A DNA stretch of 64,000 bases from Alkalidesulfovibrio alkalitolerans DSM 16529 (GTDB lineage Bacteria > Desulfobacterota > Desulfovibrionia > Desulfovibrionales > Desulfovibrionaceae), in assembly GCF_000422245.1 (NCBI RefSeq), contig NZ_ATHI01000001.1, forward strand, positions 124,001 to 188,000. Direction: 5' to 3'. The stretch's first letter is position 1. The number at the start of each line of letters is the position of its first letter. Shown piece after piece: positions 11,869 to 41,295 of the stretch. A program made the position numbers and the translations under genes. A model generated the notes under the pieces. It saw only the letters and a program-made list of their open reading frames with translations. It searched no databases and was not told the DNA's origin.

Positions 11869-12115
11869 CTACGTCTCTTTTAAGCGATGGTTCCTCAACG
11901 CTTGCAGTTTTACTAAAACAACCACCGTTCAATTTTCCCAAGGCAAATAGTCTCGTTGATGAATCATTTTGAAGGCACTATTCTCTCTAGTCCTGGTCGC
12001 TACATAATCTATATCTTAGTATTCAGCGAGCCCAAATGTACGAGTGTAACGCGCGAAACATCTCTTGGAATATAAATTTTCACCGCCATTACACACGGTT
12101 ACCATCCTTATTTTT

Positions 12116-18611: not shown

Positions 18612-19289
18612 CTATATTTCTTGCATGGTCCAGGCCACGCGGCCCACGAGTCGTTCGTCCTTTCTGTCCAACGGCAAATGCAGGTCGAAGACGCCCTTGC
18701 CCTCGCCCTGGAGCCGAAGCGCCCCGCGTCCGATATCCACGAAGACCCGCCGGAAAACGAGTCCCACCTCGGGCAGGAGCACGGCGTGAACGTCGCCCTC
18801 GGCGATGTTCCTGCGCCGCGTTTCGACGCCGACGTAAGCACCCCGCCTGATGACCGGAGACAGACTGTCGTCCGTGGCTGTGAAAACGAGCAGGCCGGGG
18901 CGGCGATAGCTGGACGGGATGCAGATGCGATCCGTTTCCGGCGCGGTCCACGCTCCGTTGGCACCGCGTGATGGCGTCGGAGCGTTGACAGCCACGATGG
19001 TCAACCCCTCGGAGGAGTCCAGAGCGTCGCCCGCGTCCGGGGCTGTCAGGCGTCGGGGAGGCTCTCCGGACAGGAGCCAGCGCGGATTGTAGCCCGCCTC
19101 CAGGCACAGCGAGAGAATCCAGGAAGCAGGTACGCGCTTCTTTTTCTTGGCGTCGGAGACGCTGGATTGACGAATTCCCAGGCGTTCCGCCAGATCCTGT
19201 TGGGTCTGGGCTCCGGCAGCCTCGAGAACGCGAAGGTATATATCATTGAACTCTTCGGCGTCTCGCAACGCGCTCCCTGCCTGATTCAT
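18612..19289 (-). CDS. Phage CI-type repressor with S24-like domain (degenerate protease), copy B
   Basis: A 225-aa paralogue of copy A. The helix-turn-helix (TQQDLAERLGIRQSSVSDAKKKKRVP, about 29-54) is followed by a linker and an S24-like domain. The nucleophile position is kept (Ser142 in TDDSLSP) but the general-base Lys is replaced: LVFRRVF has Arg180 where copy A has Lys182. So this protein keeps the half that copy A lacks. GGAGATAATAG precedes the ATG. A 220-bp divergent intergenic region separates it from copy C on the other strand, suggesting shared control. Confidence 0.9.
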   Translation of the reverse strand: MNQAGSALRDAEEFNDIYLRVLEAAGAQTQQDLAERLGIRQSSVSDAKKKKRVPASWILSLCLEAGYNPRWLLSGEPPRRLTAPDAGDALDSSEGLTIVAVNAPTPSRGANGAWTAPETDRICIPSSYRRPGLLVFTATDDSLSPVIRRGAYVGVETRRRNIAEGDVHAVLLPEVGLVFRRVFVDIGRGALRLQGEGKGVFDLHLPLDRKDERLVGRVAWTMQEI

Positions 19290-27546: not shown

Positions 27547-28035
27547 ATGGACCCAATCACCATCATCGCGGGCGTGGCCTCGGTCGTGCCGACCATCGCC
27601 CGCTGGATCGGCGGCGACAAGTCGAAGACCGCCGAAGTGGCGCAAAAGGCCGCCGACGTGGCCATGCGCGTCACCGGCGCGAGCGACCCGGCCACGGCCA
27701 TCGAGCAGCTCAAGATCAACAAGAAGTTCGCCCTGGAGTTCGAGAAGCTCTGGGCGGGCGTGGACATGGGGCTGCAGGAGAGCCTGACCCGCCGCCACGA
27801 GGCGGACATGTCCTCGGACTCCTGGCTCTCCAAGAACGTGCGGCCCCTGTGCCTGCTGGGCCTCACGGCCGCGGTCGTCGGCGGGGTCTTCACGTCCGTG
27901 GACGAGGGCAAGCTGCGCGCCCTGACCGAGCTCGGGCTCTACGTCTTCGGCTACTACTTCATCGGCCGCAGTGCCTTCGACAAGGGCGCGGTGCGCCTCG
28001 ACCTCTCGCGCGAGGGCGGGGGGGCCGTCCGATGA
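27547..28035 (+). CDS. Phage holin (three-transmembrane, GTA-holin-like)
   Basis: A 162-aa protein with an N-terminal hydrophobic helix (PITIIAGVASVVPTIARWIGG), an amphipathic middle and two C-terminal membrane helices (LCLLGLTAAVVGGVFT and LYVFGYYFIGRSAFD), the layout of the 3TM holins associated with gene-transfer-agent release. A GAGGAGCGGAGC leader precedes the ATG. It heads the plus-strand phage operon, and its stop overlaps the next start (ATGA). Confidence 0.8.
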   Translation: MDPITIIAGVASVVPTIARWIGGDKSKTAEVAQKAADVAMRVTGASDPATAIEQLKINKKFALEFEKLWAGVDMGLQESLTRRHEADMSSDSWLSKNVRPLCLLGLTAAVVGGVFTSVDEGKLRALTELGLYVFGYYFIGRSAFDKGAVRLDLSREGGGAVR

Positions 28036-28316
28036 GCGGCGAAGACATCCGCGAACTGTGGGAGGCCATCGAGGGCCTTCGGCGCGGCCAGGGCGACATC
28101 CTGGTCGGCCTCTCCGAGGTCAAGGCCGCGCTGAACGAGCGCTGCCGCGAGCGCGCCCGCCGCATGGACGCCCAGGGCCAGGCCATCGAGGGCGCGGGGT
28201 TGCGCATCGCCGCCCTGGAGCGCGGCCAGGCGCGGCTCTTCGCCTGGGCCTCGCTCGCTGGCGGCGCGGCCGCCCTGGCCGGGCACTGGCTGCTCAAGAC
28301 GCTGGGGGGAAGCTAG
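28032..28316 (+). CDS. XhlA-like small phage protein (coiled coil plus C-terminal membrane helix)
   Basis: A 94-aa protein with an N-terminal coiled-coil (IRELWEAIEGLRRGQGDI through RIAALERGQ) and one C-terminal transmembrane helix (LFAWASLAGGAAALAGHWLL). This resembles haemolysin XhlA-type proteins that accompany holins. It overlaps the holin gene by 4 bp and is followed 1 bp later by the terminase small subunit. No endolysin is encoded next to them. Confidence 0.65.
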   Translation: MSGEDIRELWEAIEGLRRGQGDILVGLSEVKAALNERCRERARRMDAQGQAIEGAGLRIAALERGQARLFAWASLAGGAAALAGHWLLKTLGGS

Positions 28317-28317
28317 G

Positions 28318-28782
28318 ATGGCCCGCTGGCTCACTGACTACGCCCGCATGGCCGAGGTGGCCGCGCGCAAGGGATTTGCCGAGCGCGACCTGGCCGAGCT
28401 CTTCGGCCTCTCCATCGACGAATGGCGCGCCTGGGTTGCCAAGCGCCCGGACCTGGCCAAGGCCCTGGCGCGCGGCCGGGGCGACGCCGACACCCGCGCC
28501 GAGCGCATGCTGCTCGCCCGCGCCCTGGGCCTGACCTGCACCGAGACGACCATCAAGACCGCGCCCGTGCGCGGCGAGGACGGGGCCGTGACCGAGGAGG
28601 TGCGCGAGCGCCGCGTGGTGAGAAAGCGCCTGCCGCCCGATTTTCAGGCCCTCAAGCTCTGGCTCTCGCGCCGCCGTCCCGATCTGTGGGGCGACGGCGG
28701 GGACGACGACCCCATGAACGCGCTCTCCGAGGAGGACATCGATGCCCGCATCCGCGAGCTCGAACACCAGCTTGGCGGCTAA
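28318..28782 (+). CDS. Terminase small subunit
   Basis: A 154-aa DNA-packaging protein with an N-terminal helix-turn-helix (LTDYARMAEVAARKGFAERDLAELFGLSIDEWRAW) followed by a helical middle and an acidic C terminus (LSEEDIDARIRELEHQLGG). Its place just before the terminase ATPase gene, overlapping it by 41 bp, supports the call; sequence alone is weaker. Confidence 0.82.
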   Translation: MARWLTDYARMAEVAARKGFAERDLAELFGLSIDEWRAWVAKRPDLAKALARGRGDADTRAERMLLARALGLTCTETTIKTAPVRGEDGAVTEEVRERRVVRKRLPPDFQALKLWLSRRRPDLWGDGGDDDPMNALSEEDIDARIRELEHQLGG

Positions 28783-29479
28783 GCGCGAGAAGCTGCGCGC
28801 GCTCTCGGCCAAGGCCAGGCTGCGCGCGGAGAACGCCATCGCCGCCTACTACCCGGACGAGGGGCCGCTGGCCCGCGTGTTGTACCCGCGCCACCTGGAG
28901 TTCTTCCGCGCCGGGGCCGCGTGCCGCCAGCGGCTGATGCTGGCCGCCAACCGCGTGGGCAAGACCGAGGGCGTGGGCGGCTACGAGCTGACCCTGCACC
29001 TGACCGGGCTCTACCCCCATTGGTGGGAGGGCCGCCGTTTCACGCGGCCGGTGCGGGCCTGGGCCTGCGGCGACACGACCGAGTCCGTGCGCGAGATCCT
29101 GCAACGAAAGCTCCTCGGGCCGCCCGAGGCCCCTGGTGCCGGGCTCATCCCCAGGCGCGCGATCCGCGAGGTGGCTAGGCGCGGCAGCGGCGTGGCCGAC
29201 GCCGTGGAGCGCGTGGCCGTGGCTCATGCAACGGGCGGGCTCTCCTGGCTCAAATTCAAGTCCTACGACCAGAAGCGCCGCGCCTTTCAGGGCACGGAGC
29301 AGGACGTGATCTGGCTGGACGAGGAGCCGCCCATGGACGTCTACGCCGAGTGCCTGATGCGCACCATGACCACGGGCGGGCTGCTCATGCTGACCTTCAC
29401 GCCGTTGCTCGGGCTGTCCGAGGTGGTGCTTTCCTTCCTGCCTGGCGGCAAGCTGCCCCAGGCCGAGGAGGTGGCCTGA
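28742..29479 (+). CDS. Terminase large subunit, ATPase half (split gene)
   Basis: A 245-aa protein that holds only the ATPase domain of a phage large terminase: Walker A AANRVGKT at 68-75, Walker B VIWLDEE with Asp193/Glu194, and a coupling motif MLTFTPL near 225. It then stops at TGA in the linker, and the nuclease half starts in the next ORF with TGATG overlap (29477-29481). GAGGAGG precedes its ATG. All motor residues look intact, so the split may be functional with two coupled subunits, or it may be a recent mutation. Confidence 0.88.
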   Translation: MPASASSNTSLAAKREKLRALSAKARLRAENAIAAYYPDEGPLARVLYPRHLEFFRAGAACRQRLMLAANRVGKTEGVGGYELTLHLTGLYPHWWEGRRFTRPVRAWACGDTTESVREILQRKLLGPPEAPGAGLIPRRAIREVARRGSGVADAVERVAVAHATGGLSWLKFKSYDQKRRAFQGTEQDVIWLDEEPPMDVYAECLMRTMTTGGLLMLTFTPLLGLSEVVLSFLPGGKLPQAEEVA

Positions 29480-30234
29480 TGCCCCAGGTCGCGCCCGGCA
29501 AATACCTCGTCACCGCCACCTGGGACGACGTGCCGCACCTCTCCAAGGCCCAAAAACGCGAGCTGTGGGCCCAGATCCCGCCGCACCAGCGCGACGCCCG
29601 CGCCAAGGGCGTGCCGCAGCTCGGGGCCGGGGCCGTCTATCCCGTGCCCGAGGACGAGATCGTGGTCTCGCCCTTCGAAATCCCGGCGCACTGGCCGCGC
29701 GCCTACGGCCTGGACGTGGGCTGGAACCGCACGGCCGCCGTGTGGGGGGCCTTCGACCGCTCCGGCGGGGTGCTGCACCTGTATGCCGAGCACTACCGGG
29801 GCCAGGCCGAGGCCGAGGTCCACGCGGCCGCCGTCAAGGCGCGCGGCGAGTGGATTCCCGGCGTCATCGACCCGGCCGCGCGCGGCCGCTCGCAGATCGA
29901 CGGCACGAGCCTGCTGGCCATCTACCAGTCCCTCGGGCTCGACCTCTCGTGCGCGGACAACGCCGTGGAGGCGGGAATTTATCGCGTCTGGAGCCTCCTT
30001 TCCACGGGCCGGATCAAGGTTTTCGCCACACTCTCCAACTGGCTGGCCGAATACCGGCTCTACCGCCGCGACGCCAACGGCAGGGTGGTCAAGGAGCGCG
30101 ACCACCTCATGGATGCAACCCGCTACCTCGTGGCCTCCGGGCTCGACGCGGCCCGCGCCGTGCCGCCCGGGCGAGACGCCCTGCGCGCCAGGCCCGGCGA
30201 GGCGGCCAACCACGACTACGAGATGTTCGCATGA
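29479..30234 (+). CDS. Terminase large subunit, nuclease half (split gene)
   Basis: A 251-aa protein carrying the C-terminal RNase H-like headful nuclease. The acidic triad is visible as YGLDVGW (Asp79), VIDPAARG (Asp131) and MDATRYLVA (Asp212). Its N-terminal 20 residues (KYLVTATWDDVPHLS) match the region that follows the ATPase in unsplit terminases. The ATG shares one base with the stop of the ATPase half. There is no separate Shine-Dalgarno sequence beyond GAGGAGGTGG about 8 bp upstream, suggesting translational coupling. It ends with an ATGA overlap with the GNAT gene. Confidence 0.88.
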   Translation: MPQVAPGKYLVTATWDDVPHLSKAQKRELWAQIPPHQRDARAKGVPQLGAGAVYPVPEDEIVVSPFEIPAHWPRAYGLDVGWNRTAAVWGAFDRSGGVLHLYAEHYRGQAEAEVHAAAVKARGEWIPGVIDPAARGRSQIDGTSLLAIYQSLGLDLSCADNAVEAGIYRVWSLLSTGRIKVFATLSNWLAEYRLYRRDANGRVVKERDHLMDATRYLVASGLDAARAVPPGRDALRARPGEAANHDYEMFA

Positions 30235-30779
30235 ACCACGCCATCTATCTGATCTCTCCCGGCACCGACGCCATGTCGCCGGACCTGGCCCGCGAGACGC
30301 TTGACCAGCTCTGGGACATGCTTTGGGACGACGGCCTCGTCTCCACGGTCTTCTACGAGGGCCGCGTGACAAACGCCGCAGCCTTCGCCGCGCTCATGCT
30401 CTCGCCGCTCACGGCCTGCTACGCGGCCTTCGGGACGGGCTCGCGGCCCGCTGGCCTGGCCTGGCTGAACGCGCAGGAGGGCAAGGCCGCGCGCCTGCAC
30501 TTCTGTTTCTTCCGCCACGCCAGGCGACACGCCCTTTCCCTGGGGCGGCTCTTCACCCGTTTCCTGCTCACCGCCCGCGATGAAGGGGGCGAATCCTACC
30601 TGGAGACGCTCTACGCGGGCGTTCCCCAATCCAACCGGCCGGCGCTGTCGTTGGCGCGAAAGCTCGGGTTCAGGACCATGGGGGTCCTGCCCGGCGCGGC
30701 CTACATCGCGGAAGCGGATCGCCTCGAAGGGCTGGTCCTCTCCCGCCTGACCCGAGAGGAGATAGACAATGATCAATAA
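30231..30779 (+). CDS. GNAT-like phage protein, 3' end altered by cassette insertion
   Basis: A 182-aa protein with a GNAT-like C-terminal part (QSNRPALSLARKLGFRTMGVLP is a typical acetyl-CoA-fold helix-strand). Small GNAT-like proteins are common in T7- and BPP-1-like structural operons. The last six residues (EIDNDQ) and stop come from an inserted cassette. The original 3' end, giving ..TREEVLAHG, survives after the cassette at 31350-31507. The protein therefore ends almost normally despite the insertion. Confidence 0.75.
   Translation: MNHAIYLISPGTDAMSPDLARETLDQLWDMLWDDGLVSTVFYEGRVTNAAAFAALMLSPLTACYAAFGTGSRPAGLAWLNAQEGKAARLHFCFFRHARRHALSLGRLFTRFLLTARDEGGESYLETLYAGVPQSNRPALSLARKLGFRTMGVLPGAAYIAEADRLEGLVLSRLTREEIDNDQ
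30622..30761 (+). repeat. Left copy of perfect 140-bp direct repeat flanking the WYL cassette
   Basis: This 140-bp segment, the 3' part of the GNAT gene, recurs without a mismatch at 31350-31489. The first mismatches are at 30621/31349 on one side and 30762/31490 on the other. Confidence 0.95.
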
Positions 30780-30972
30780 TAAGATGCCTAGTGCTGTTGT
30801 TTTGAATCGATATGGTGAGGATGATCATTGTTTCAAGCATTGCAATGGGCAGAAAGTGCGCCCATGGCCATGCAAAAAATGCAAAAAAAGAACATTCCAC
30901 ACGTCAGATTGTGGAGTTTTTAGTTCTCCTGCGTTTGAGAATGTGGAGTGTACGTGTGGTCTCAGATCATAG
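30769..30972 (+). CDS. Small Cys-rich ORF in the cassette, unrecognised
   Basis: A 67-aa frame whose ATG overlaps the end of the GNAT gene and uses the GAGGAG of that gene as ribosome-binding site. It contains KHC, CKKC, SDCG and ECTC motifs that could bind a metal (six to seven Cys), e.g. WPCKKCKKRTFH. The ORF ends 11 bp inside the 3' end of the convergent WYL gene. It may be a real small zinc-ribbon protein or chance; composition is that of the AT-rich insert. Confidence 0.4.
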   Translation: MINNKMPSAVVLNRYGEDDHCFKHCNGQKVRPWPCKKCKKRTFHTSDCGVFSSPAFENVECTCGLRS

Positions 30973-31258
30973 CTATAACATTTGGTATGTGTGCATCCCT
31001 CTCTGGATTGTATCCATCCCTTGGGGAGTCAAAGTGCTGACCAGTTCTTCTAATATTTTCAATCTTCTCAATACGCATAAGTCGCCAGGGCGGTTGTCTT
31101 CCAGAGTTGCTGAATCCGGCGACTTGGTAGCAACGAAGAAGCTCTTGGCCATCCTTGCCATAACCACAGCAATGAGGCTCGACGGTACGTTCACCGCCGT
31201 CATAATAAAATTCAAGAACAGCTTTGTCTCTTATTGCTTCGGCTATCAGATTGAGCAT
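30962..31258 (-). CDS. Stand-alone WYL-domain protein
   Basis: A 98-aa protein consisting only of a WYL-like domain: LIAEAIRDKAVLEFYYDGGERTVEPH, then GYGKDGQELLRCYQVAG and PPWRLMRIEKIENIR. WYL domains sense ligands, often nucleic acids or nucleotides, in regulators of phage defence and DNA damage; free-standing WYL proteins of this size are known but uncharacterised. It has no DNA-binding domain. GGAGGGA precedes the ATG at 31258 by 8 bp; a TTG at 31264 is a less likely start. It runs against the phage operon inside an AT-rich insert, like a moron gene. Confidence 0.8.
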   Translation of the reverse strand: MLNLIAEAIRDKAVLEFYYDGGERTVEPHCCGYGKDGQELLRCYQVAGFSNSGRQPPWRLMRIEKIENIRRTGQHFDSPRDGYNPERDAHIPNVIAMI

Positions 31259-31349
31259 CGACAATCCCTCCCGAGGAAAATAGGTTACAGGTTTGAATTA
31301 GCATTGACTATAGCAACAAATGTTAATCCAGGCAAGTTTGTCTCAATTA

Positions 31350-31489
31350 TTCCCCAATCCAACCGGCCGGCGCTGTCGTTGGCGCGAAAGCTCGGGTTCA
31401 GGACCATGGGGGTCCTGCCCGGCGCGGCCTACATCGCGGAAGCGGATCGCCTCGAAGGGCTGGTCCTCTCCCGCCTGACCCGAGAGGAG
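31350..31489 (+). repeat. Right copy of the 140-bp direct repeat
   Basis: Identical to 30622-30761. It carries the original 3' end of the GNAT gene, which continues to a stop at 31505-31507, and the GAGGAGG ribosome-binding site of the following gene at its end. Confidence 0.95.
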
Positions 31490-31499
31490 GTTCTTGCCC

Positions 31500-31730
31500 A
31501 TGGGTAGCCTGTTTTCCCCGCCCAGAGCCCCGTCCGCGCCCCCGCCGCCCCCGCCCGCACCGGCCCCGGTCATGCCCGAGGAACTGGACGCGGCCGAGAC
31601 CAGGGCCATGAAGGAGGCGCGCGAGAAGCAGAAGAAGGCCGCGCTCCTGGCTGCCGGACGTTCCGGCACGGTGCTCGCCGAGCGCGGCACGCCTGCGCCC
31701 ACGGCCCAGAAAACCCTGCTCGGCCAATAG
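31500..31730 (+). CDS. Small Pro-rich phage structural-operon protein
   Basis: A 76-aa protein with a Pro/Ala-rich N terminus (PPPPPPAPAPV) and a charged helix (EELDAAETRAMKEAREKQKKAALLA), ending in a Gly/Thr-rich tail (TPAPTAQKTLLGQ). Small proteins of this kind precede the portal gene in BPP-1-like phages; function unknown. GAGAGGAGG precedes the ATG. Portal follows after 10 bp. Confidence 0.7.
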   Translation: MGSLFSPPRAPSAPPPPPPAPAPVMPEELDAAETRAMKEAREKQKKAALLAAGRSGTVLAERGTPAPTAQKTLLGQ

Positions 31731-31740
31731 GAGGCGCGCG

Positions 31741-33441
31741 ATGAGCGAATCACGACTGAGACAGGCCCGCGAGCGGGCGCAAGCCCTGTGGGATCGCCGC
31801 CGTTCCTGGGACGAGCACCTGCGCGAGGTGGCCGAATACGTGCTGCCCGACAAGGGGCGCTTCGCCGGACACGAGCAGGGCCGCGAGGGCGGCAAGCGCA
31901 TGGGCCGCATCATCGACTCCACGGCCACGCGCGCCGTGCAGATCATGGCCGCCGGGCTCATGGGCGGCCTGACCAGCCCGGCCCGGCCCTGGTTCCGGCT
32001 CGGCCTGGCGGACAAGGAACTGCGCGAGTGGGGGCCGGTGCGCCACTGGCTGGAGGCGGCCGAGCGGGCCATGTACGGCATGTACGCCCGCTCCAACTTC
32101 TACCAGAGCGTGCACGGGCTCTACCTGGAACTGGGGGCCTTCGGCACGGGCTGCATGTTCTGCGAGGCCGATCCCGAGCGCGGCGCGCGCTTTACGACCT
32201 TGACCTTCGGCGAGTACGCCCTGGCCTGCGACGCCTCGGGCACGCCGGACACCGTGGCCGTGCGCCGCACGTGGCCCGCGCGAAGGCTCGCCGAGCGCTT
32301 CGGCGAGGACAACCTCTCGGAGGGCGCGCGGCGCATGCTCACGGCCGCGCGCGGCGACGGCCGGGTGGAGGTGACGCAGCTCATCGTCCCGCGCGCCGAA
32401 GGAGGCGAGGCGCGGCTTTCGGCCAGGGCCAAGCCCTTCGCCTCGCTCATCTTCGAGAGCGCGGCCGCTGCGCGTTCGGGCGGCGGGCTGTTGCACGAGG
32501 GCGGCTACGACCGCTTCCCCTGCCTGTGCCCGCGCTGGGACGTGACCGGCGGCGAGGAATACGGCCGGGGGCCGGGCATGACCGTGCTGCCGGACGTGAA
32601 GATGCTCCAGGAGATGGCCAAGGGGCGGCTTCAGGCCGTGCATCTGGGGCTTCGTCCGCCCATGCGCGTGCCCTCCAAGTTCGCCAAGCGGCTGAACCTG
32701 GTGCCCGGCGGCCAGAACTACGTGAACCCCCAGCAGGCCGAGGGGCTGGCCCCGCTCTACGAGTCGCGGGTCTCCATCGCCGAGGTCACGGCCGTGATCG
32801 AGGACGTGCGCCGCCAGGTGCGCGAGGGCTTCTTCAACGACCTCTTCCTGATGATCTCCTCCATGGACCGTTCCAACGTCACGGCCACGGAGATCATGGA
32901 GAAGCAGGCCGAGAAGCTGCTCATGCTCGGCCCCATCGTGGAGCGGCTGCACTCCGAGCTGCTCGATCCCCTGACCCTGCGCTGCTTCGAGCTTCTGGAC
33001 GCGGCCGGAGCCCTGCCGCCCGCGCCGCCCGAGGTGCTGCACTACGCGGCCGCCGGGGGCGAGCTCAAGATCGAGTACGTCTCCATGCTCTCCCAGGCCC
33101 AGAAGCTCTCGGGCTCGCAGTCCATCATGCAACTGCTGGAAGTGGCCGGGCGCATGGCCGCCGGACGGCCCGAGGTTCTGGACAAGATCGACTTCGAACA
33201 GGCCCTGGACGAGCTCTCGCTGGTCACGGGCGTGCCCTCGGGGGTGGTCAGGCCCGACGACGAGGTGGCCGAGCTGCGCGCCAGGCGCGCGGCCCTGGCC
33301 GAAGGGATGCCGCTTGGCGCGGGCATGGGGCCGGGCGAGGGGCCGGGCGAGGGCGGCGCGCCGCCCGCGGCCGCCCTTCCCATTCCGCCTGCCGCGCTCA
33401 GGCCTGGTGCGGCCGGTCCCCACGCGGAGGTCAGGCCGTGA
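31741..33441 (+). CDS. Portal protein (head-tail connector, T7 gp8/BPP-1 type)
   Basis: A 566-aa protein matching the podoviral head-to-tail connector family. It has an N-terminal helical start (RRSWDEHLREVAEYVLPD), a RIIDSTATRAVQIMAAGLMGGLTSPARPWFRL signature, and a QKLSGSQSIMQLLEVAGRMA segment in the C-terminal third; it ends in a Gly/Pro-rich tail. It forms the dodecameric ring through which DNA is packaged. AGGAGG precedes the ATG. Its stop overlaps the GTG start of the next gene. Confidence 0.93.
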   Translation: MSESRLRQARERAQALWDRRRSWDEHLREVAEYVLPDKGRFAGHEQGREGGKRMGRIIDSTATRAVQIMAAGLMGGLTSPARPWFRLGLADKELREWGPVRHWLEAAERAMYGMYARSNFYQSVHGLYLELGAFGTGCMFCEADPERGARFTTLTFGEYALACDASGTPDTVAVRRTWPARRLAERFGEDNLSEGARRMLTAARGDGRVEVTQLIVPRAEGGEARLSARAKPFASLIFESAAAARSGGGLLHEGGYDRFPCLCPRWDVTGGEEYGRGPGMTVLPDVKMLQEMAKGRLQAVHLGLRPPMRVPSKFAKRLNLVPGGQNYVNPQQAEGLAPLYESRVSIAEVTAVIEDVRRQVREGFFNDLFLMISSMDRSNVTATEIMEKQAEKLLMLGPIVERLHSELLDPLTLRCFELLDAAGALPPAPPEVLHYAAAGGELKIEYVSMLSQAQKLSGSQSIMQLLEVAGRMAAGRPEVLDKIDFEQALDELSLVTGVPSGVVRPDDEVAELRARRAALAEGMPLGAGMGPGEGPGEGGAPPAAALPIPPAALRPGAAGPHAEVRP

Positions 33442-33872
33442 CCCGGCTGCACGTGCCCGAACCCGATCCGGAGTTCGCGCTCTACGCCCAGGCCGGGTTC
33501 GAGGCCGCGCTCGGCGGGGCTGCCGACGATCCGGTCGGCGAAGACCTTTGCGGCGGCCCGGCGCACGGCCCGGCGCACGGCCCCGAGGCCGAGCGTCTGG
33601 CGCGCCTTCTGGCCGACTGCCGCGAGGTCATGTGCCTGCCCTCGGGCGCGGGGCTTCGGCTGCTGTGGCACTGGCGCGAGCAGGCCCTGGCCTTCGGCCA
33701 GGTCTTCGTGCCCGGCGCGGCCGTGTACGCCAACGCCGCGCTCATGGACTACGCCCGCGAGCGCGAGGCCGAGATGGCCATGGCCCACCCGCGCAAATAC
33801 CTGGAACTCATGACCCTGGCCGCCCGCGCCCACGCCCGGGAGGCGGCGGCCGCAACCGCACGGAGGAGATGA
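33438..33872 (+). CDS. Bbp19-like phage protein
   Basis: A 144-aa protein starting at a GTG that overlaps the portal stop (GTGA). The central part, LADCREVMCLPSGAGLRLLWHWREQALAFGQVFVPG and HPRKYLELM, resembles the small Bbp19-type proteins found after portal genes in BPP-1-like phages. Function is unknown. It overlaps the region before the scaffold start. Confidence 0.65.
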   Translation: MTRLHVPEPDPEFALYAQAGFEAALGGAADDPVGEDLCGGPAHGPAHGPEAERLARLLADCREVMCLPSGAGLRLLWHWREQALAFGQVFVPGAAVYANAALMDYAREREAEMAMAHPRKYLELMTLAARAHAREAAAATARRR

Positions 33873-33874
33873 TC

Positions 33875-34633
33875 ATGCCCCACGAGATCACGGACCACGC
33901 CGGAATCATGGACAGCGCCGCGCCGCAGGACGCACCCGGACGCGCGGACACCCAGGACACCGGATGGGATACCCCGGCCACGGCCCATGCGCCCGGCCGG
34001 GAAGAGGCAAGGGACAAGGAGAAGGGCGGGGCGGACCTGCCGCGCGTGAAAAACCTCCTGCTCGACCCCGTGGACGCACCCGATGGCGCGGACCACGAGG
34101 CCGGGGAGGTGGAGCGCGCCCTGCACGACAAGGCCAGGAAGGCCAAGGTGGCCGCGTCCTACGCGCCCGAGGACTACGCCTTCGAGTTCCCGGACGGGTT
34201 CTCCCCGGACGAGGCGCTCGTGACGGCCTTTCGGGACTTCGCGGCCGACGAGGGCATCGCGCCCGACCTGGCGGGCAGGCTGGCCGCCTTTCAGGTGCGC
34301 ATGGTCATGACGGCCCAGACCGACATGGCCGAGCGCTGCGAGGAGGCGCTGCGCGCCGAGTGGGGCCGCGACTTCGGCCGCAACATGCGCGAGGTCAAGT
34401 CCGCGCTTTCCTACGTGGACGCGCACCTGCCCGGCTTCAAGGACTGGGTGGGCACCCTGGGATCGTGGGCGGGCGGCTCGCCCGAGTTCGTCCGCTTCAT
34501 GCACTGGCTCGGCCGCCATGTGGCCGAGGACCGGCTCATGGACGGCGGCGGGCCCGCGCCCCGCTCCGAGGAGATGACCACCCTGGAGTACATCACCGAC
34601 GCGTTCAAACGCGCAGAACGAGGAGACTACTAG
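33875..34633 (+). CDS. Capsid assembly scaffolding protein
   Basis: A 252-aa acidic, largely helical protein with a disordered N terminus and the EDYAFEFPDGFSPDEALVTAFRDFAADEGI motif found in many phage scaffold proteins. It lies immediately before the major capsid gene. The ATG at 33875 is preferred to that at 33869 because GGAGGAG sits 6 bp upstream of it. The capsid gene starts on the next base after its stop. Confidence 0.82.
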   Translation: MPHEITDHAGIMDSAAPQDAPGRADTQDTGWDTPATAHAPGREEARDKEKGGADLPRVKNLLLDPVDAPDGADHEAGEVERALHDKARKAKVAASYAPEDYAFEFPDGFSPDEALVTAFRDFAADEGIAPDLAGRLAAFQVRMVMTAQTDMAERCEEALRAEWGRDFGRNMREVKSALSYVDAHLPGFKDWVGTLGSWAGGSPEFVRFMHWLGRHVAEDRLMDGGGPAPRSEEMTTLEYITDAFKRAERGDY

Positions 34634-35560
34634 ATGAGCATGAGCACCCTGAAGGAACTGGCCGTTCAGTACGCCACCAAGCAGCCCAAGCAGGTGGACG
34701 CCCTGACCGAGAAGGCCCCGATCCTGGACGCGCTGCCCTTCGACGAGGCCAGCCACGGGCTTTGGAACGCCTACGAGGATCTCTCGAACATCCAGGGCGC
34801 GGGCTTCGTGGAGATGAACGCGCCGCTGCCGGTCATCGCGGCCGACGCGGACCTGAAGAAGGTCGATCTGGCCATCATGGGCGGCGAGATCGAGGTGCCC
34901 GAGGACAAGGCCCGCATGTTCGGCGGCAAGGAGCAGTACTTCTCCAAGAAGATGGACGCCATCCTGCGCGCCTCGGGCATGGCCGCCGAGAAGAAGATCA
35001 TCTACGACAACTTCCGGGCCTTCGCCCTGGACCACGGCGCGGCGCTCTCGGCCGGGGCCGAGACCGACGCCTGCTACTCCATCCTGGCCGTGCGCTTCGA
35101 GCCCGGCGTGACCTGCGGCCTGTACAGCCCCGAGGGCTTCAAGCGCGGCTCGCTGCTCGACTCGCTGCCCATCAACGGCGGCGCGCTCTACAAGAACGCC
35201 CAGGGCGTGCTGGTCTTCGGCATGCGCGTCAAGGGCTACTTCGGCATCCAGATCGCGGACCCGCGCACCGTGGCCGCCATCGTCAACATCAACGCCGACA
35301 ACGTGCCCACGGCCGCCCAGGTGGACGACCTGCTGGCCATGGTCCGGGCCGACTCCGCCGACACCAAGCTGTTCATGCACATGCGCTGCAAGAACATGCT
35401 CAACCGCTACAAGGCCGGCGACGGCCAGGGCGGCGGCAGCCTGCAGACCCTGCCCGCGACCAAGGATCTGAACCGGACCTTCGAGGCCTGGAACGGCATC
35501 CCCATCGTCGCTTCCTACAACTTCCTCGAAGGGGCCGAGACGGCCGTGGCCCTCGACTAA
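34634..35560 (+). CDS. Major capsid protein (BPP-1/P22-like podovirus family)
   Basis: A 308-aa HK97-fold-type capsid protein. Recognisable segments are TLKELAVQYATKQPKQVDALTEKAPILDALPF at the N terminus, FGGKEQYFSKKMDAILRASGMAAEKKIIYDNF in the middle and NGIPIVASYNFL near the C terminus. It follows the scaffold directly and precedes the cement gene, the order usual in BPP-1-like phages. GAGGAGACTACTAG leads the ATG. Confidence 0.92.
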   Translation: MSMSTLKELAVQYATKQPKQVDALTEKAPILDALPFDEASHGLWNAYEDLSNIQGAGFVEMNAPLPVIAADADLKKVDLAIMGGEIEVPEDKARMFGGKEQYFSKKMDAILRASGMAAEKKIIYDNFRAFALDHGAALSAGAETDACYSILAVRFEPGVTCGLYSPEGFKRGSLLDSLPINGGALYKNAQGVLVFGMRVKGYFGIQIADPRTVAAIVNINADNVPTAAQVDDLLAMVRADSADTKLFMHMRCKNMLNRYKAGDGQGGGSLQTLPATKDLNRTFEAWNGIPIVASYNFLEGAETAVALD

Positions 35561-35585
35561 CCGCAACGATCCAAAGGAGAAACGC

Positions 35586-35987
35586 ATGTACAAGCAGACC
35601 CTCAAGTCCGCTGACGACTATCTGGCCAAGGGCCAGAGCCTGCCCCAGAACGCCTCGGCCCTGGGCAACCAGGGCGCGCGCGACTTCTGCAACACCCAGG
35701 GCGCCCTGGAGGTCGTGGTCGCGGCCCGCGAGGACGTGGAGGTGGCCCAGGGCCATAGCCTGACCATCGGCCTGGTCCACGCCGAGGACGGCGAGGACTT
35801 CGCCCCGGCGGGCGGGGCCTTCACGGCCGAGGCCACGGACGCGGCCCTGACCTGGCGCGCCGGGCAGATCGTCTGCCGCCTGGCCGTGCCCTCCACGCTC
35901 AAGCGCCGCGCCGCGCTGCAACTGGCCACCACGGACCCGGCCGCCTCTGGCGCCCTGGACGGCTGGCTCGCCTACCTGGCCCGCTAG
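35586..35987 (+). CDS. Bbp16-like capsid cement protein
   Basis: A 133-aa beta-rich protein starting MYKQTLKSADDYLAKGQ, with AREDVEVAQGHSLTIGLVH in the middle. In BPP-1 the equivalent protein (Bbp16) decorates and stabilises the capsid. AAAGGAG precedes the ATG; 25 bp after the capsid gene. A truncated host-type palindromic repeat follows its stop. Confidence 0.85.
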   Translation: MYKQTLKSADDYLAKGQSLPQNASALGNQGARDFCNTQGALEVVVAAREDVEVAQGHSLTIGLVHAEDGEDFAPAGGAFTAEATDAALTWRAGQIVCRLAVPSTLKRRAALQLATTDPAASGALDGWLAYLAR

Positions 35988-36045
35988 CGGACCGTCCTAA
36001 GAACGCCATCTGCCGCCGTGCATCCGGCGCTTTTTGAACGGCCTG
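35988..36045. repeat. Dispersed palindromic element, copy 6 (internally deleted)
   Basis: 58 bp with both ends of the element (CGGACCGTCCTAAGAACGCC, ATCTGCCGCCG at one side; GGCGCTTTTTGAACGGCCTG at the other) but lacking the middle. It lies inside the phage structural operon, between the cement protein and tail tubular A genes. Confidence 0.75.
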
Positions 36046-36122
36046 CGAGTCAGGCCGAAAACCTCGACCGGGCCGTCCCGCGAACGCGCTTCGCGGGGCG
36101 GTCCGCATCCCGGAGCGAACCG

Positions 36123-36695
36123 ATGACCGCCGACATCGCCATCTGCAACATGGCCCTGACCGCGCTCGGCCATGAGACCATCGCCGCGCCGCACGAGCGC
36201 ACCAAGGCCGCCGGATTGTGCCGCCTGCACTACCACGGGGCGCGGCGCGAGCTTTTGGAGGCCCACCACTGGGCCTTCGCCACGGGCGCGGCCGACCTGG
36301 CCCTGGTGCACGGCGTGGCCGAAACGGCCACGGCCAGGGCGCTTGGCTACGCCTTCGCCTTCATGCGCCCCGCGGACTGCCTGAAGGCCCGCCGCCTGAC
36401 CGACGACGCGCCCTTCGAGCCCGCCGGGCGGCTGATCCTGTGCAACGTGGACAAGGCGCGGCTCATCTACACCCGTGACCTGACCGAATCGGCCGTGTTC
36501 CCGGCCGCCTTCACGCGCGCCCTGAGCTTTCTCCTGGCCTCGCTCCTGGCCGTGCCGCTGATGCAAAGCCAGAAGCTCGAACGCTCCATGCTCGAAAAGT
36601 ACCTGAGCCTGGTCGAGGCCGCGCGCGAGACCGACGCGGACCAGGGCGCGCCCGCGGGCGAGCCGAGCGTGGCCTGGATCGAGGCGAGGAGGTAG
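36123..36695 (+). CDS. Tail tubular protein A-like (T7 gp11-type)
   Basis: A 190-aa protein with the start pattern typical of tail tubular A proteins (IAICNMALTALGHETI), followed by YHGARRELLEAHHWAFA and FMRPADCLKARRL. It is expected to form the upper ring of the short tail below the portal. GGAG lies upstream of the ATG. Its stop is 2 bp before the next gene. Confidence 0.82.
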   Translation: MTADIAICNMALTALGHETIAAPHERTKAAGLCRLHYHGARRELLEAHHWAFATGAADLALVHGVAETATARALGYAFAFMRPADCLKARRLTDDAPFEPAGRLILCNVDKARLIYTRDLTESAVFPAAFTRALSFLLASLLAVPLMQSQKLERSMLEKYLSLVEAARETDADQGAPAGEPSVAWIEARR

Positions 36696-36697
36696 CC

Positions 36698-39112
36698 ATG
36701 GGCAAGAGCATCATCCTGCAGACCAGCTTCAACGGCGGCGAGCTTTCGCCCCTGCTCCAGGGCCGCGTGGATCAGGAACGCTACGCCTCGGGCTGCGAGC
36801 GGCTCGTCAACTTCTGCCTGTGGCCGCACGGCGCGGCCCATCGGCGGCCGGGCACGCGCTTCGTGGCCGCCTGCGGCAACGAGGACTCGGCCTCGCGCCT
36901 GATTCCCTTCGAGGTGGCCTCGGACACGGCCTACGTGCTCGAATTCTTCGCCGACGCCGAAGGAGGCGGCCGGATGCGCGTTTTTGCGGGCGGCATGATC
37001 GGCGGCGGGCCGGTCCTGGACGGGGAGGAGGTCTGCGAGATCGCCACGCCCTACGGCTCGGCCCAGACCATCCGCGCGCTGCGCTACTGCCAGAGCGCGG
37101 ACGTGATGTACCTGGCCCATCCGGACCACCCGCCGCACAAGCTGGCCCGCCACGGCCACACGGACTGGCGGCTGACCGAGGTGGACTTCAGGCCCGGCAT
37201 CGCCGCCCCGGCGACGCTTTCGGCCGCGCGCCAGGGCCAGGCGGGGCAAACCGAGTACGCCTACGTGGTCACGGCCGTGCGCGACGAGATCGGCGAGGAG
37301 TCGCTGCCCTCGCCCGAGGCCGTGGTCGCGGACGGCAACGCCACGCTCTCGGCCGCCAACCACGTGCGGCTCGACTGGGAAGCCGTGGAGGGGGCCAGGG
37401 AGTTCAACGTCTATCGCAAGGTCAACGGCGTCTTCGGCTGGATCGGCAAGGCCGAGGGCACGCGCTTCGAGGACAAGGGCGAGACCAAGCCCGACGTGGG
37501 CGACACGCCGCCCAAAGCGCGCAATCCCTTCGACGGCCCCGGCAAGTATCCCTCCTGCGTACAGTTCTTCGAGCAGCGGCTGTTCTTCGCGGCCTCGCGC
37601 GACGAACCGCAGAAGCTGTGGGGTTCGCAGAGCGCCAACTACGAGAACTTCAACATCTCCACGCCGCTCAAGGACGACGACGCCGTGACCTACGGCGTGG
37701 CCGCCGACCGGATCAACGCCGTGGTCTGGATGCTGCCCGCGCAAAAGAAGCTGCTCTTCGGCACCGTGGGCGGCGAATGGACGCTTGGCGGCGCGGGCGG
37801 CGATCCGCTCTCGCCCCTGTCCGTGGAGACCGCGCGCGAGACGGCCCACGGCTCCGCGCCGATCCCGCCCGTGACCATCGGCAGCACCGTGCTCTTCGTG
37901 CAGCGGCCGGGCAACGTGGTGCGCGAGTTCGCCTACTCCCTGGACGTGGACGGCTACGCGGCCACGGACGTCTCCATCCTCTCCGAGCACATCCTGGGCG
38001 AGCGCGCCATCGTGGACTGGGCCTACCAGCAGGCCCCGTGCTCCACGGTATGGGCCGTGCGCGACGACGGAGAGCTTTTGGCCCTCACATATCTGCGCGA
38101 GCACAAGGTCGTGGGCTGGTCGCGCCACGAGACGCAGGGGGCCGTGGAGTCCGTGGCCGTGATCCCCGGCGCGGTGGAGGACGAAGTCTGGCTCGCGGTG
38201 CGCCGCACGGACGCGCAAGGCCAGACGCGGCGCTTCGTGGAGCGGCTGGCCCCGGTCTTTCGCGGCGAACATGCCGAGCAGGCCTTTTTCGTGGACGCCG
38301 GGCTCTCGTGCTCGGCCTGGAACGAGGATCAAGCGCGCACCCTGACCCTTTCGGCCGCCGACTGGACGCCGGGAGGCGAGGCCGTGCTCTTGGCCGTGGG
38401 CCACGCGCCGTTCTCGGTCCAGGACGAGGGGCGGCGGTTTAGGCTGCGCGCGGCGCTGCCGGGCGGCGGCATGGATCGGAGCGCGGTCTGCGAGGTGCGC
38501 GTGACCTGCGTGCAGGACGAGTCCAGCGCCTCGGTCCGGCTGCTTACGGCCGTGCCCACGGCGCTTCGCCAGGCCGCGACCATGCACCACGCCCGGCTCT
38601 CGTCCTTTATCTCGGGCCTTGAGCATCTGCAGGGCACGACCGTGCAGGTGTTGGCCGACGGCATGGTCCAGCCCGAGGTGCGCGTGGGCGACGCCTCGTC
38701 CGCCTCGTGGGCCAGCCGCGAGTGGGGGCCGGGCGAGATCGAGTTGCAGCGTCCGGCGGCCGTGGTGCACGCGGGGCTTGGCTACGTCTCGGATCTCGCG
38801 CCCATGCGGCCCGAGGCCCCGGACCAGGCGGGCACGAGCCAGGGCCGTACGCGGCGCGTGGGGCTCGTCTGGGTGCGGCTGCACAATTCGCTTGGCTGCA
38901 AGGTGGGCGCGTCGGCCAATGCCCTGCACGAGATCATGTTCCGCACCTCGGAGCACAAGATGGGCGCGGCCGTGCCGCTCTTTTCGGGCGACAGGCGCGT
39001 GGCCCTGCCCGGCGGCTACGACGCCTCGGCGGGCGTGCTCGTGCGCCAGGATCTGCCGCTGCCGCTGACCGTCCTGGCCCTGGTCACGGAACTGGAGGTC
39101 ATGGAGCGATGA
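36698..39112 (+). CDS. Tail tubular protein B-like (T7 gp12-type) tail nozzle protein
   Basis: An 804-aa protein opening with ILQTSFNGGELSPLLQGRVDQERYASGCERLVNF and PHGAAHRRPGTRFVAA, a strong signature of the podoviral tail nozzle family. Around residues 170-250 a fibronectin-like repeat is visible (YAYVVTAVRDEIGEESLPSPEA, then EFNVYRKVNG). The second half contains FEQRLFFAASRDEPQKLWGSQ. GAGGAGGTAGCC leads the ATG; the stop overlaps the next start (ATGA). Confidence 0.9.
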   Translation: MGKSIILQTSFNGGELSPLLQGRVDQERYASGCERLVNFCLWPHGAAHRRPGTRFVAACGNEDSASRLIPFEVASDTAYVLEFFADAEGGGRMRVFAGGMIGGGPVLDGEEVCEIATPYGSAQTIRALRYCQSADVMYLAHPDHPPHKLARHGHTDWRLTEVDFRPGIAAPATLSAARQGQAGQTEYAYVVTAVRDEIGEESLPSPEAVVADGNATLSAANHVRLDWEAVEGAREFNVYRKVNGVFGWIGKAEGTRFEDKGETKPDVGDTPPKARNPFDGPGKYPSCVQFFEQRLFFAASRDEPQKLWGSQSANYENFNISTPLKDDDAVTYGVAADRINAVVWMLPAQKKLLFGTVGGEWTLGGAGGDPLSPLSVETARETAHGSAPIPPVTIGSTVLFVQRPGNVVREFAYSLDVDGYAATDVSILSEHILGERAIVDWAYQQAPCSTVWAVRDDGELLALTYLREHKVVGWSRHETQGAVESVAVIPGAVEDEVWLAVRRTDAQGQTRRFVERLAPVFRGEHAEQAFFVDAGLSCSAWNEDQARTLTLSAADWTPGGEAVLLAVGHAPFSVQDEGRRFRLRAALPGGGMDRSAVCEVRVTCVQDESSASVRLLTAVPTALRQAATMHHARLSSFISGLEHLQGTTVQVLADGMVQPEVRVGDASSASWASREWGPGEIELQRPAAVVHAGLGYVSDLAPMRPEAPDQAGTSQGRTRRVGLVWVRLHNSLGCKVGASANALHEIMFRTSEHKMGAAVPLFSGDRRVALPGGYDASAGVLVRQDLPLPLTVLALVTELEVMER

Positions 39113-39639
39113 GGCACGACATCGAACGCCGCGCCGCGCGGCGGCCGGACGCGGATTCGCGGCCCCGGCTGGTCCCGTTTGCGCCCGCGCACCTGGCCGC
39201 GCTTTCGCCGCGCGCCTTTGAGCGCCTGACCTTCGGGCTTCAGGGCGGCCACGACCGCGAGACGGCCGCGCGCCTGGCCGCACTCGGCCCGGCCTTCAGC
39301 CTGCTGCGCGGGCGTGAGGTGGTGGCCTGCGCCGGGATCATGCTCGGGCCGGTGCGGCCCGACGGCACGCGCGCGGGCGATGCCTGGGCGCTCACGGGCG
39401 AGGCCGTGGAGCGCTTTCCCCTGGCCTTTCACCGCGCGGTGCGGCGCACGCTTGGCGCGCTCGTGGCGGGGCACGGCCTTTCGCGGGTCCAGGCCTTGTG
39501 CCTGGCCGGACACGCGCGCTCGCGGCGCTGGCTGAACCGACTTGGATTTCGGCGCGAGACCCTGGAGCCGGGCATGGCCTGCATGCTGCCGGGCGCGCGC
39601 CTGCACCTGTACGCACTCACACGGGAGGACGGATCATGA
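39109..39639 (+). CDS. GNAT-like internal virion protein (T7 gp13-type position)
   Basis: A 176-aa protein with a GNAT-like pattern (FSLLRGREVVACAGIML, then LCLAGHARSRRWLNRLGFRRE). T7-like phages carry a comparable small protein after the tail tubular B gene. Catalytic activity is not implied. It is coupled by ATGA overlaps to both neighbours. Confidence 0.7.
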   Translation: MRHDIERRAARRPDADSRPRLVPFAPAHLAALSPRAFERLTFGLQGGHDRETAARLAALGPAFSLLRGREVVACAGIMLGPVRPDGTRAGDAWALTGEAVERFPLAFHRAVRRTLGALVAGHGLSRVQALCLAGHARSRRWLNRLGFRRETLEPGMACMLPGARLHLYALTREDGS

Positions 39640-40184
39640 GCGGAATCGAACCCTGGATTCTGGCGAGCTCCATCGCCACCACGGGCGTGGGGATGATCTC
39701 GGGCCAGGCCCAGGCCCAGGCGCAGGCCCAGGCGGCGCGCCAGGCCGCCGAATACCAGCGCCAGATGGCCGAGAACAACGCCCTGGCGGCCGAGCAGCAG
39801 GCCGATCTGGAGAAGAAGATGGCCGAGAAGCGGCTTGCGGCCATCCGCCAGGAGGGCGCGGGCCAGAGCGGCGCGCTTCGGGCGCGCATGGCGCGAAGCG
39901 GTGTGAGCCTGCTGGACGAGGACGGCTCGGCCATGGACGTGCTGGGCCAGGTGGCGGCGGACTACGCGGGCCACGCCGAGGCCGAGAAGTGGAAGAGCGA
40001 CTATGCCGTGCAGAATCTCCTGCACCGCGCCGAGACGTACCGGCACGGCGGGCTGCTCGCGGACATGGAGGGCGCGGCCAGGGCCGGGGCCATCCGGAGC
40101 TCGTCCATGAGTTCGCTCACCCAGGGCCTGCTCGGCCTCACGCACAACACCCTGGCTTCCGGCCACAAATACAATTGGTGGTAG
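39636..40184 (+). CDS. Internal virion protein (T7 gp14-type position)
   Basis: A 182-aa protein with an N-terminal hydrophobic helix (PWILASSIATTGVGMISG), a Gln/Ala-rich coiled coil (QAQAQAQAQAARQAAEYQRQ and following) and a C-terminal part with SLLDEDGSAMDVLGQVAADY. This is the layout of small internal core proteins that are ejected into the host envelope. It overlaps the upstream gene by 4 bp. A terminator follows 30 bp later, where the phage operon is interrupted by AT-rich DNA. Confidence 0.75.
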   Translation: MSGIEPWILASSIATTGVGMISGQAQAQAQAQAARQAAEYQRQMAENNALAAEQQADLEKKMAEKRLAAIRQEGAGQSGALRARMARSGVSLLDEDGSAMDVLGQVAADYAGHAEAEKWKSDYAVQNLLHRAETYRHGGLLADMEGAARAGAIRSSSMSSLTQGLLGLTHNTLASGHKYNWW

Positions 40185-40214
40185 CGGACCGCTAAAGTGA
40201 CGACAGACGATGAA

Positions 40215-40244
40215 GGGCGGCTCCGTGCGGAGCCGCCCTGTTTT
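40215..40244 (+). terminator. Rho-independent terminator after the internal virion protein gene
   Basis: A perfect 10-bp stem GGGCGGCTCC / GGAGCCGCCC around GTGC is followed by TGTTTT. It would end the phage structural transcript just before the AT-rich insert. Confidence 0.8.
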
Positions 40245-40515
40245 GTGGAAGTAGGAAAACGAGGGTCATACTTGGAATCGTAACTCATTGACGATCTTAA
40301 GATGTGACCCGTCGGCACGTTTTTATGCGATATAATATATTGCCATTATAATGCTACTGCGAAATAAAATATCTAATGATTTCTAGCAAGAGAGGCGAAG
40401 GCTTTTTGTTGCAATCATACAGATGTAAATACATATTTACCCCCATTTACAATCGAATGATAGTTGGTGGTAATAATCATATTTCTCGTCATTCTTACTT
40501 AGCGAGGGGGGTAAA
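40245..40515. other. AT-rich intergenic region upstream of the lipoprotein gene
   Basis: No convincing gene; a short overlapping frame at 40376-40672 looks spurious. A near-palindrome GTAAATACATATTTAC occurs at 40425-40440 and may be an operator. The promoter of the lipoprotein gene should lie here. Confidence 0.45.
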
Positions 40516-41199
40516 ATGCGTATCACGTCGCTGTTCATTGTTATGTTGTCGCTATTTGTATCTGCCTGTAGCTATAAGGTCCCAACCGAAGTTTCTCCCG
40601 CAACAAACATCTACTCGACCTATGAGGACAAAATTCCAGGTAAATTCTACCTTGTGTCGGATTCTGGAATGAAAAATATCCATAGGGATATCAAACCATC
40701 ATCTTACGTTTGCAGCGCACATTCATATCCATTGACTGTTGATTCATCTGTATCGCAATCAGTTCGTGCGACTCTTCAAAATGTTTTTGAAAACATAGAA
40801 GAGATTGATCACATGCCAACAGTTGAGATGATGGGAAAAGATGGAGCTCAGGGTGTCGTTTTCGTTAAGATGAAGAGATTCGAGCCGAGCATACGATTCG
40901 CAATGGGCTTTTGGTCTGGGACTGGAATTGGCACATGCGATATGGTCATTGAAGTTGTTGTAAAGGATAAAAATAATCAAACTCTTGTCAATACGACAGT
41001 TGGCGGAAACAGAACGACGGAAGGCGATTCCGGAGCTGGATGCGGAGGAGGGGCAGAAGTCCTTTCTCGGGCTATATACGAGACGACAAGAGACACAATG
41101 GAAAGGTTGGCCGAGCGAGTAGCTAACTCAACCAAAGTGCGAGAGGCTGTTTCATCAGATATTGCAATGCAGACGAACCCTTCTGTGGCTGCCGATTAG
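40516..41199 (+). CDS. AT-rich lipoprotein, probable moron gene
   Basis: A 227-aa protein with a signal peptide and lipobox (LSLFVSAC, Cys18). The mature part has YLVSDSGMKNIH, a segment FVKMKRFEPSIRFAMGFWSGTG and CDMVIEVVVKDKNNQTLV, with repeated beta strands and a Gly-rich GAGCGGGAEVLSRAI. I do not recognise the family. AGGGGGG lies before the ATG. The gene is much more AT-rich than the phage genes around it and sits behind its own terminator-bounded promoter region, as lysogenic-conversion genes often do. Confidence 0.75.
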   Translation: MRITSLFIVMLSLFVSACSYKVPTEVSPATNIYSTYEDKIPGKFYLVSDSGMKNIHRDIKPSSYVCSAHSYPLTVDSSVSQSVRATLQNVFENIEEIDHMPTVEMMGKDGAQGVVFVKMKRFEPSIRFAMGFWSGTGIGTCDMVIEVVVKDKNNQTLVNTTVGGNRTTEGDSGAGCGGGAEVLSRAIYETTRDTMERLAERVANSTKVREAVSSDIAMQTNPSVAAD

Positions 41200-41295
41200 C
41201 ATGAGTTAGGCTGAAAAGCACCAGCGCTTCTGCATCTCACCCCTCTTTCCTGAGAATGGAAGGAGGGGTGCTGGCTTATCTATGACGGGGCTCCA

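Follow-up and report, generated by a model that had tools for sequence, protein, structure and literature searches.

A convergent WYL/Cys gene pair flanked by a 140-bp duplication in a phage structural operon of Alkalidesulfovibrio alkalitolerans: a probable recent moron acquisition

A 588-bp AT-rich block that interrupts a phage structural operon of Alkalidesulfovibrio alkalitolerans DSM 16529 is, in the reading that we prefer and to which we give a probability of about two in three, a recently acquired phage moron, i.e., a two-gene module encoding a WYL-domain protein and a small cysteine-rich (Cys) protein that was joined into the operon by illegitimate recombination. The block lies within the 64-kb stretch of DNA analysed here (the window). 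It offers a fresh case of phages acquiring small gene modules, in which an empty site matched at more than 99% identity reveals both joints of the insertion, and sister insertions in other genomes suggest what is constant in such events (the ribosome-binding-site edge and the tail-to-tail gene pair) and what is variable (the overlap with the target). Autonomous mobility of the block is not supported, and the recurrence of the pair, tail to tail, in several other phages speaks for accessory genes and not for a new kind of jumping element. The convergent phage gene pair, a stand-alone WYL gene with a small Cys gene, is the more interesting result, the WYL family being tied to phage defence and to DNA-damage sensing.

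The surroundings of the block are a phage structural cluster that encodes a holin-like protein, the small and large terminase subunits, a GNAT-like protein, the portal, the major head protein, tail proteins and internal virion proteins. The GNAT-like gene (30231 to 30779, + strand, 182 aa), whose protein has 60 and 65% identity to its counterparts in two genomes of the same genus (G001 and G002), carries a label that is weakly supported by its sequence: the protein has no Pfam match up to E 1, and weak profile matches to PHROG acetyltransferases (E about 0.06) and to RimI (E 0.003, far below cut-off). A first-pass annotation, made from the letters of the window, had described two identical 140-bp copies of the 3' end of this gene around an AT-rich block with a stand-alone WYL gene and a small Cys-rich ORF, and this description holds in full. 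By repeat search the copies (30622 to 30761 and 31350 to 31489, both + strand) are 100% identical at a spacing of 728 and form the sole direct repeat of at least 30 nt within the window (20-nt seed), and the block between them (30762 to 31349) has 43% GC. From gene to gene it has 44% GC against 70% in the 2-kb flanks; a base composition unlike that of the host phage is typical of morons.

The same annotation had held that the duplication keeps the GNAT-like frame nearly intact and re-creates a ribosome-binding site for the gene that follows; the reading of the two ends agrees. Where the block is absent the GNAT-like gene ends ...TREEVLAHG, overlapping the ATG of the next gene, as read from the sequence; with the block, the frame of copy 1 ends ...TREEIDNDQ, so that only the last five residues are changed. 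Copy 1 closes with the ribosome-binding site GAGAGGAG, 7 bases upstream of the ATG of the Cys gene (30769 to 30972, + strand, 67 aa; ORF list and motif alignment). Copy 2 returns the same site to the next phage gene (31500 to 31730, + strand, 76 aa; PHROG 831, of unassigned function in PHROG), whose ATG at 31500 it precedes and which directly adjoins the GNAT-like gene in the block-free arrangement; the head-to-tail connector (portal) gene stands beyond it (31741 to 33441, + strand; Pfam PF12236, E 5e-163). The WYL gene (30962 to 31261, - strand; 98 aa from its likely ATG at 31258; ORF list and predicted structure) is convergent with the Cys gene, their 3' ends overlapping by 11 bp, and a candidate promoter for it that matches the consensus (TTGCCT-17-TATAGT, with TG before the second hexamer) lies at 31307 to 31335 on the - strand. 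Neither of the two small ORFs matches a recombinase (ORF list, Pfam and PHROG), also as first annotated, and an Rfam search returned no RNA family. A perfect 10-nt inverted repeat (30766 to 30775 and 30822 to 30831), the only inverted pair of at least 10 nt, spans the start codon of the Cys gene and could form a hairpin that hides it.

The case for gain, rather than long residence, comes from relatives in which the GNAT-like junction was sought with and without the block. A search of viral contigs with the GNAT-like protein led to a contig (L072; whole contig L087) that is 99.2% identical to the window on the left and 99.6% on the right and that carries a single 140-bp copy without the block, i.e., an empty site. 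The block is likewise absent from G001 and G002 (about 75% identity at the site), where the window matches in two parts whose overlap has the length of one repeat copy and the next gene follows directly after the GNAT-like frame. All three relatives that cover the site (3/3) thus lack the block; as is usual for a moron, DNA that stands between two genes of one genome is missing from between those genes in close relatives. Given an empty site in a near-identical contig and in two same-genus genomes, the sequences indicate that the block is most likely a recent gain, and as such the gain is well supported. The proposal that perfect repeat identity means a recent event or ongoing recombination therefore stands in its first part, on the strength of the empty L072/L087 site, and not in its second, since identity only bounds the age of the copies and does not imply continuing exchange. 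Had the block been ancestral and had relatives lost it when the two 140-bp copies recombined, the outcome would be precisely the empty site of L072; this is very unlikely, because it must accommodate three of three relatives without the block, two of them at about 75% identity, and copies that stayed identical throughout.

The repeat could also have been made by the assembler, the genome being a draft in 32 contigs and assembler k-mer sizes being close to 140 bp, and we regard this as extremely improbable. Two viral contigs from one record set (L071 and L088) are 100% identical to the window and both break at the repeat, L071 stopping at 30761 and L088 starting 93 bp before base 30761. Nothing in a genome lacking the repeat would call for a contig break there, so these contigs count against an artefact; such breaks are what is expected if two continuations are real, with reads that are possibly not independent. 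The two genes of the block, moreover, recur as a pair elsewhere. Both of the outcomes that had been named at first annotation as fatal to an insertion, an assembly artefact and an ancestral tandem duplication, are accordingly disfavoured by the empty sites and by the contig breaks.

Sister insertions of the gene pair in two other genomes, G286 and G230, allow the joints to be compared, the empty-site references being L087 for the window, G293 for G286 and G231 for G230. In all three cases (3/3) the left joint falls right after the ribosome-binding site that serves the downstream gene, and the Cys gene is co-directional with the operon, using a ribosome-binding site that in relatives with the empty site belongs to the next gene. 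The left joint of the window follows GAGAGGAG and its right joint lies 140 bp upstream on the target. The left joint of G286 follows CATTCAGGAGG at the end of a terminase gene, and its right joint falls about nine codons inside a small GNAT-like gene, intact in relatives, with about 30 bp missing by the layout of G293 and more by that of G294; the relatives read out were six (L076-L079, L082 and L085) of the 33 other genomes with a match, and among the matches listed for 59 other genomes (up to five scored candidates per genome) none fell inside the block part of G286. The terminase stretch of the G286 cluster gives matches in 34 of 60 genomes, a count that includes G286 itself and one short chance-like match. 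The left joint of G230 follows CTAGGAGGA, and a second AGGAG stands before the displaced gene; five of six relatives have both flanking genes 40-120 bp apart by match ends and lack the pair, and the sixth has 241 bp between them that read, by eye, as a different short ORF.

The overlap with the target varies among these insertions: 140 bp are duplicated in the window, about one ribosome-binding site in G230, and about 30 bp are lost in G286. The last two values are approximate, as they come from alignment by eye to relatives of 71-82% identity and a run of N lies near the right edge of G230. No direct repeat of at least 18 nt spans the pairs of G286, G230 or G216 (a further pair-bearing genome), and no constant length of duplication emerges from the three cases, two of them approximate. 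On sequence comparison, then, the ribosome-binding-site edge appears constant and the overlap does not. The GC content of the insert departs from that of its 2-kb flanks in G286 (0.53 against 0.63) and G230 (0.47 against 0.68) as in the window (0.44 against 0.70), and is unchanged in G216 (0.59/0.58) and in two further loci, L063 (0.56/0.54) and L069 (0.52/0.51), where nothing marks a recent insertion; the G216 site has a match in four of 39 genomes, none with an empty site.

Differing overlaps combined with a ribosome-binding-site edge are what would be expected from two independent illegitimate joints filtered by selection for working neighbours, and the variation seems to accord with illegitimate acquisition of a moron more readily than with an element that makes a target-site duplication of fixed length. 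A discrete block, a neatly rebuilt target, a similar module in several phages and no recombinase of its own might together suggest a small autonomous element that is mobilised in trans and makes a long target-site duplication. We consider such an element very improbable, as a single 728-bp unit with the block is present in its genome, no inverted repeat of at least 10 nt joins the block ends, and the three cases share no overlap length. The first-pass suggestion of a cassette that inserts by homology or through a trans-acting recombinase is not supported either, given also the absence of a long flanking repeat in G286 and G230, and the search for other sites of the block, which it had recommended, gave that one genomic occurrence and no viral contig with an exact 26-mer of the block. 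The mycobacteriophage MPME elements, as presented in the relevant passages of PMC3029335, are similarly very small inserts in phage genomes (439 bp); they carry inverted repeats, whereas none joins the ends of the block, and 6 bp of added sequence.

The anatomy of the site is nevertheless of a known kind, judging from two precedents in the same passages (PMC3029335). In mycobacteriophage Island3, the 3' ends of gene 68 and of the gene before it have 60 bp in common, and Brujita has a single copy and lacks gene 68; the authors propose recombination between sequences of about 50 bp, as either loss or gain. Here, as there, a small insert stands behind a phage gene with a duplicated gene end and a close relative is empty; the Island3 copies are non-identical and the inserted gene is without homologues, whereas the window has 140 identical bp and a two-gene module that is found in other phages. 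The 1.35-kb insert of LRRHood is flanked by 29-bp direct repeats that are single in relatives, a further likeness, and counts among its genes a regulator for which action against other phages has been proposed; it differs in having four genes with homologues in other mycobacteriophages and a much shorter repeat. With phage morons as described there (PMC3029335) the block shares its place between genes that are adjacent in relatives, a promoter candidate and a differing base composition, and it departs from them in having two convergent genes, one of them behind the operon's ribosome-binding site, together with a gene-end duplication.

The Island3 precedent also bears on the main rival to our reading, in which a donor phage that already had the GNAT-like tail and the module, or a 728-bp circle, recombined with the operon through the shared 140 bp. 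An anatomy like that of the window, with 60-bp copies, has been attributed to recombination between about 50-bp sequences by deletion or intermolecular exchange (PMC3029335, same passages), and a 140-bp repeat could support exchange that carries the unit between sister phages. We nonetheless judge homologous exchange an unlikely source of this insertion: exchange would require exactly these 140 bp in the donor, a stretch that differs by about a quarter in G001 and G002, so that the donor must be a very close relative already bearing the structure. Exchange would in this way account for spread and not for origin, and the insertions of G286 and G230 have no flanking repeat of at least 18 nt.

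Illegitimate acquisition of a moron would proceed, in the course that we propose, by joining of the left end of the module at a ribosome-binding site, or by selection of a joint placed there, possibly through short AGGAG homology. The right end would have joined 140 bp farther upstream on the target, either on a second genome copy or across a staggered break that was filled in, and in so doing would have duplicated the 140 bp. The insertion would have survived because the GNAT-like gene remained almost whole, the Cys gene gained a ribosome-binding site and the displaced gene regained its own; the WYL gene probably has its own promoter within the module. The searches turned up no donor carrying identical DNA from which the original ends of the block could be read, so that the AGGAG homology is a plausible suggestion, and the position behind a ribosome-binding site could have come from selection on the Cys gene alone.

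The AlphaFold model of the WYL protein (nine sequences; pLDDT 92.3, pTM 0.85) has one helix and six strands over its 98 residues, which is the WYL fold of a helix with an Sm-like barrel. Foldseek places WYL proteins (DriD, PafBC) at ranks 1-9 with probability 1.00 (best E 0.008, none at E 0.001), and in VIA-align the first 14 ranks go to BrxR, DriD, PafBC and CapW (76-87 residues, Z 7.7-9.9, 16-22% identity), above Sm/Hfq rows at Z 7.4 and less. Over nearly its whole length the modelled chain resembles both BrxR (7qfz_A, Z 9.9, rmsd 3.0, 85 aligned) and DriD (9cu3_B, Z 9.8, rmsd 2.6, 81 aligned). Unlike BrxR, CapW, DriD and PafBC, which are DNA-binding regulators with chains of 193-642 residues, the window protein is a WYL domain alone. 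Transcription factors of the BrxR, CapW and DriD type carry an HTH DNA-binding domain in the same protein, and the window protein has none.

The Pfam WYL model matches the window protein at E 0.0037 (17.7 bits against a gathering score of 21.8), matches the G286 homologue above the gathering score (25.3 bits) and does not match those of G216 and G230 up to E 0.1; a generic CRISPR-associated WYL model in PADLOC matches the window protein at E 2e-5. NCBIfam gave no match for either protein of the block, and a PDB sequence search with the WYL alignment gave none at E 1. Pattern scans with the single sequence found no relatives in genome contigs or in viral contigs, and alignment-based scans found two viral and six genome loci; by tblastn, four of 50,697 phage records and 15 of 72,556 plasmid records matched, all at less than 60% identity. 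Among stand-alone WYL homologues elsewhere, an AAA ATPase adjoins in three loci (L048, L050 and L068), none is annotated directly beside the gene in six others, and one further locus is unannotated. The WYL gene of G286 (L051, 1564-1860) has a frame broken near its C-terminal end, with one stop inside. A moron has a promoter and a terminator of its own; by consensus scan, the interval from 30600 to 31520 has four promoter-like sites against a mean of 0.7 in shuffles and two terminator-like sites against 0.8 expected; the candidate WYL promoter matches at 9/12 with TG, and G230 has a candidate of its own (TTGACA-17-TAAAAG). The same scan upstream of WYL gave none in G216 and L063 and weak 7/12 matches in G286 and L069. 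The promoter-like sites of the window and G230 suggest that WYL may be expressed separately.

The Cys protein follows the pattern C..C..R.FH.SDC......PA.....C.CG, of which the end, SDC...PA...C.CG, is conserved, and it may bind metal; its AlphaFold model (pLDDT 43) is unusable. A UBR-box zinc finger was considered and rejected, one of four Cys proteins scanned matching zf-UBR at E 0.004 (17.6 bits against a cut-off of 25.2). A PDB sequence search with the Cys alignment reached at best E 0.054 with unrelated zinc and ribosomal proteins, tblastn found no phage record, and PADLOC had no match for the Cys proteins. Searched over 348 genomes of the class, the protein gave 20 hits at E 0.01, with G286, G216 and G230 next below its own genome; the 16 further loci (L032-L047) are missing the motif. 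A Cys profile over 395 phylum-sampled genomes, a sample that may omit G216, G230 and G286, found only the own genome at E 1e-4. A motif scan with three Cys proteins yielded 35 viral loci, several of them near-copies or near a contig end and one without an assigned ORF. The sequence SDCA..N.PALP.GPCDCG recurs, patch-like, at the end of or within many otherwise different phage ORFs (L117-L150); since many motif loci sit inside longer, differing ORFs, the motif is a wider phage feature.

The two genes form a unit, as the recurrence of their arrangement in sequence comparisons indicates. WYL matches occur in 10 of the 348 class genomes, four of which (the own genome, G216, G286 and G230) have a Cys partner. 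When stand-alone WYL loci are pooled from all searches (24 distinct loci, some of them near-copies), six have the partner, always convergent and adjoining: the four just named, a viral contig (L063) and an alphaproteobacterial MAG (L069), whose Cys protein is missing the first CxxC. A WYL ORF is present in three of the 35 viral motif loci, the other 32 having none in the DNA examined; one of the three is the L063 contig again, so the new pairs are L132 and L140, and the distinct tail-to-tail pairs number eight. Measured in seven pairs, the distance from the C.CG codons to the WYL stop beyond them is 1-7 nt in six and 29 nt in the seventh; G286, with its WYL frame broken at the end, was omitted. 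In a tree of the 24 WYL sequences the six pair members need three label changes, a value as low in four of 500 shuffles, and bootstrap support is unsettled; the tree is compatible with a single or a multiple origin of the pair. In 20 of 20 comparisons pN is below pS, with synonymous sites saturated, which would speak for constraint and no more. No description of such a pair was met in the literature listings searched, nor in what PMC5512222 and PMC4012209 say on WYL proteins and on phages.

As to function, the Cys gene would be transcribed with the phage operon and the WYL gene from the other strand, so that the two may be favoured in different phases. Some WYL regulators are described, in the passages covered, as binding single-stranded DNA or controlling defence systems, and by analogy with its structural relatives the likeliest signal for the WYL protein is single-stranded nucleic acid; any part in superinfection or damage sensing would be a guess. 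A bolder idea, which we offer tentatively and think rather unlikely to be right, is an undescribed, phage-borne switch: through the convergent overlap of their genes, a WYL sensor made in lysogeny and a Cys-finger protein made in the lytic phase would exclude each other, with the finger perhaps acting against WYL. Such a module would move from one phage to another, unrelated one through joints made at ribosome-binding sites, its SDC...PA...CDCG segment recurring as a patch within many phage proteins that differ elsewhere.

Several features of the wider window deserve mention in their own right. No integrase or replication gene occurs among the cluster proteins scanned (27547 to 43227), and the idea of a gene-transfer agent or domesticated cluster was dropped on finding that the left flanks differ in G001 and G002. 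Two ORFs that overlap at TGATG (29477 to 29481) encode the terminase large subunit, which is one 489-aa ORF in G001 and also looks split in G002. Between virion genes lies an AT-rich ORF (40516 to 41199, 45% GC) with a lipoprotein-like start by eye, for which there was no PHROG or Pfam match and no match in the G001 and G002 stretches compared, and which may be a second moron. Two other AT-rich ORFs are without Pfam matches (13250 to 14458, 402 aa, 34% GC; 10939 to 11868, 309 aa, 48% GC). Outside the structural cluster are two CI-like repressors (17276 to 17959 and 18612 to 19289) with S24 peptidase matches, one of them just below cut-off, and a 96-aa S24 ORF at 12108 to 12398.
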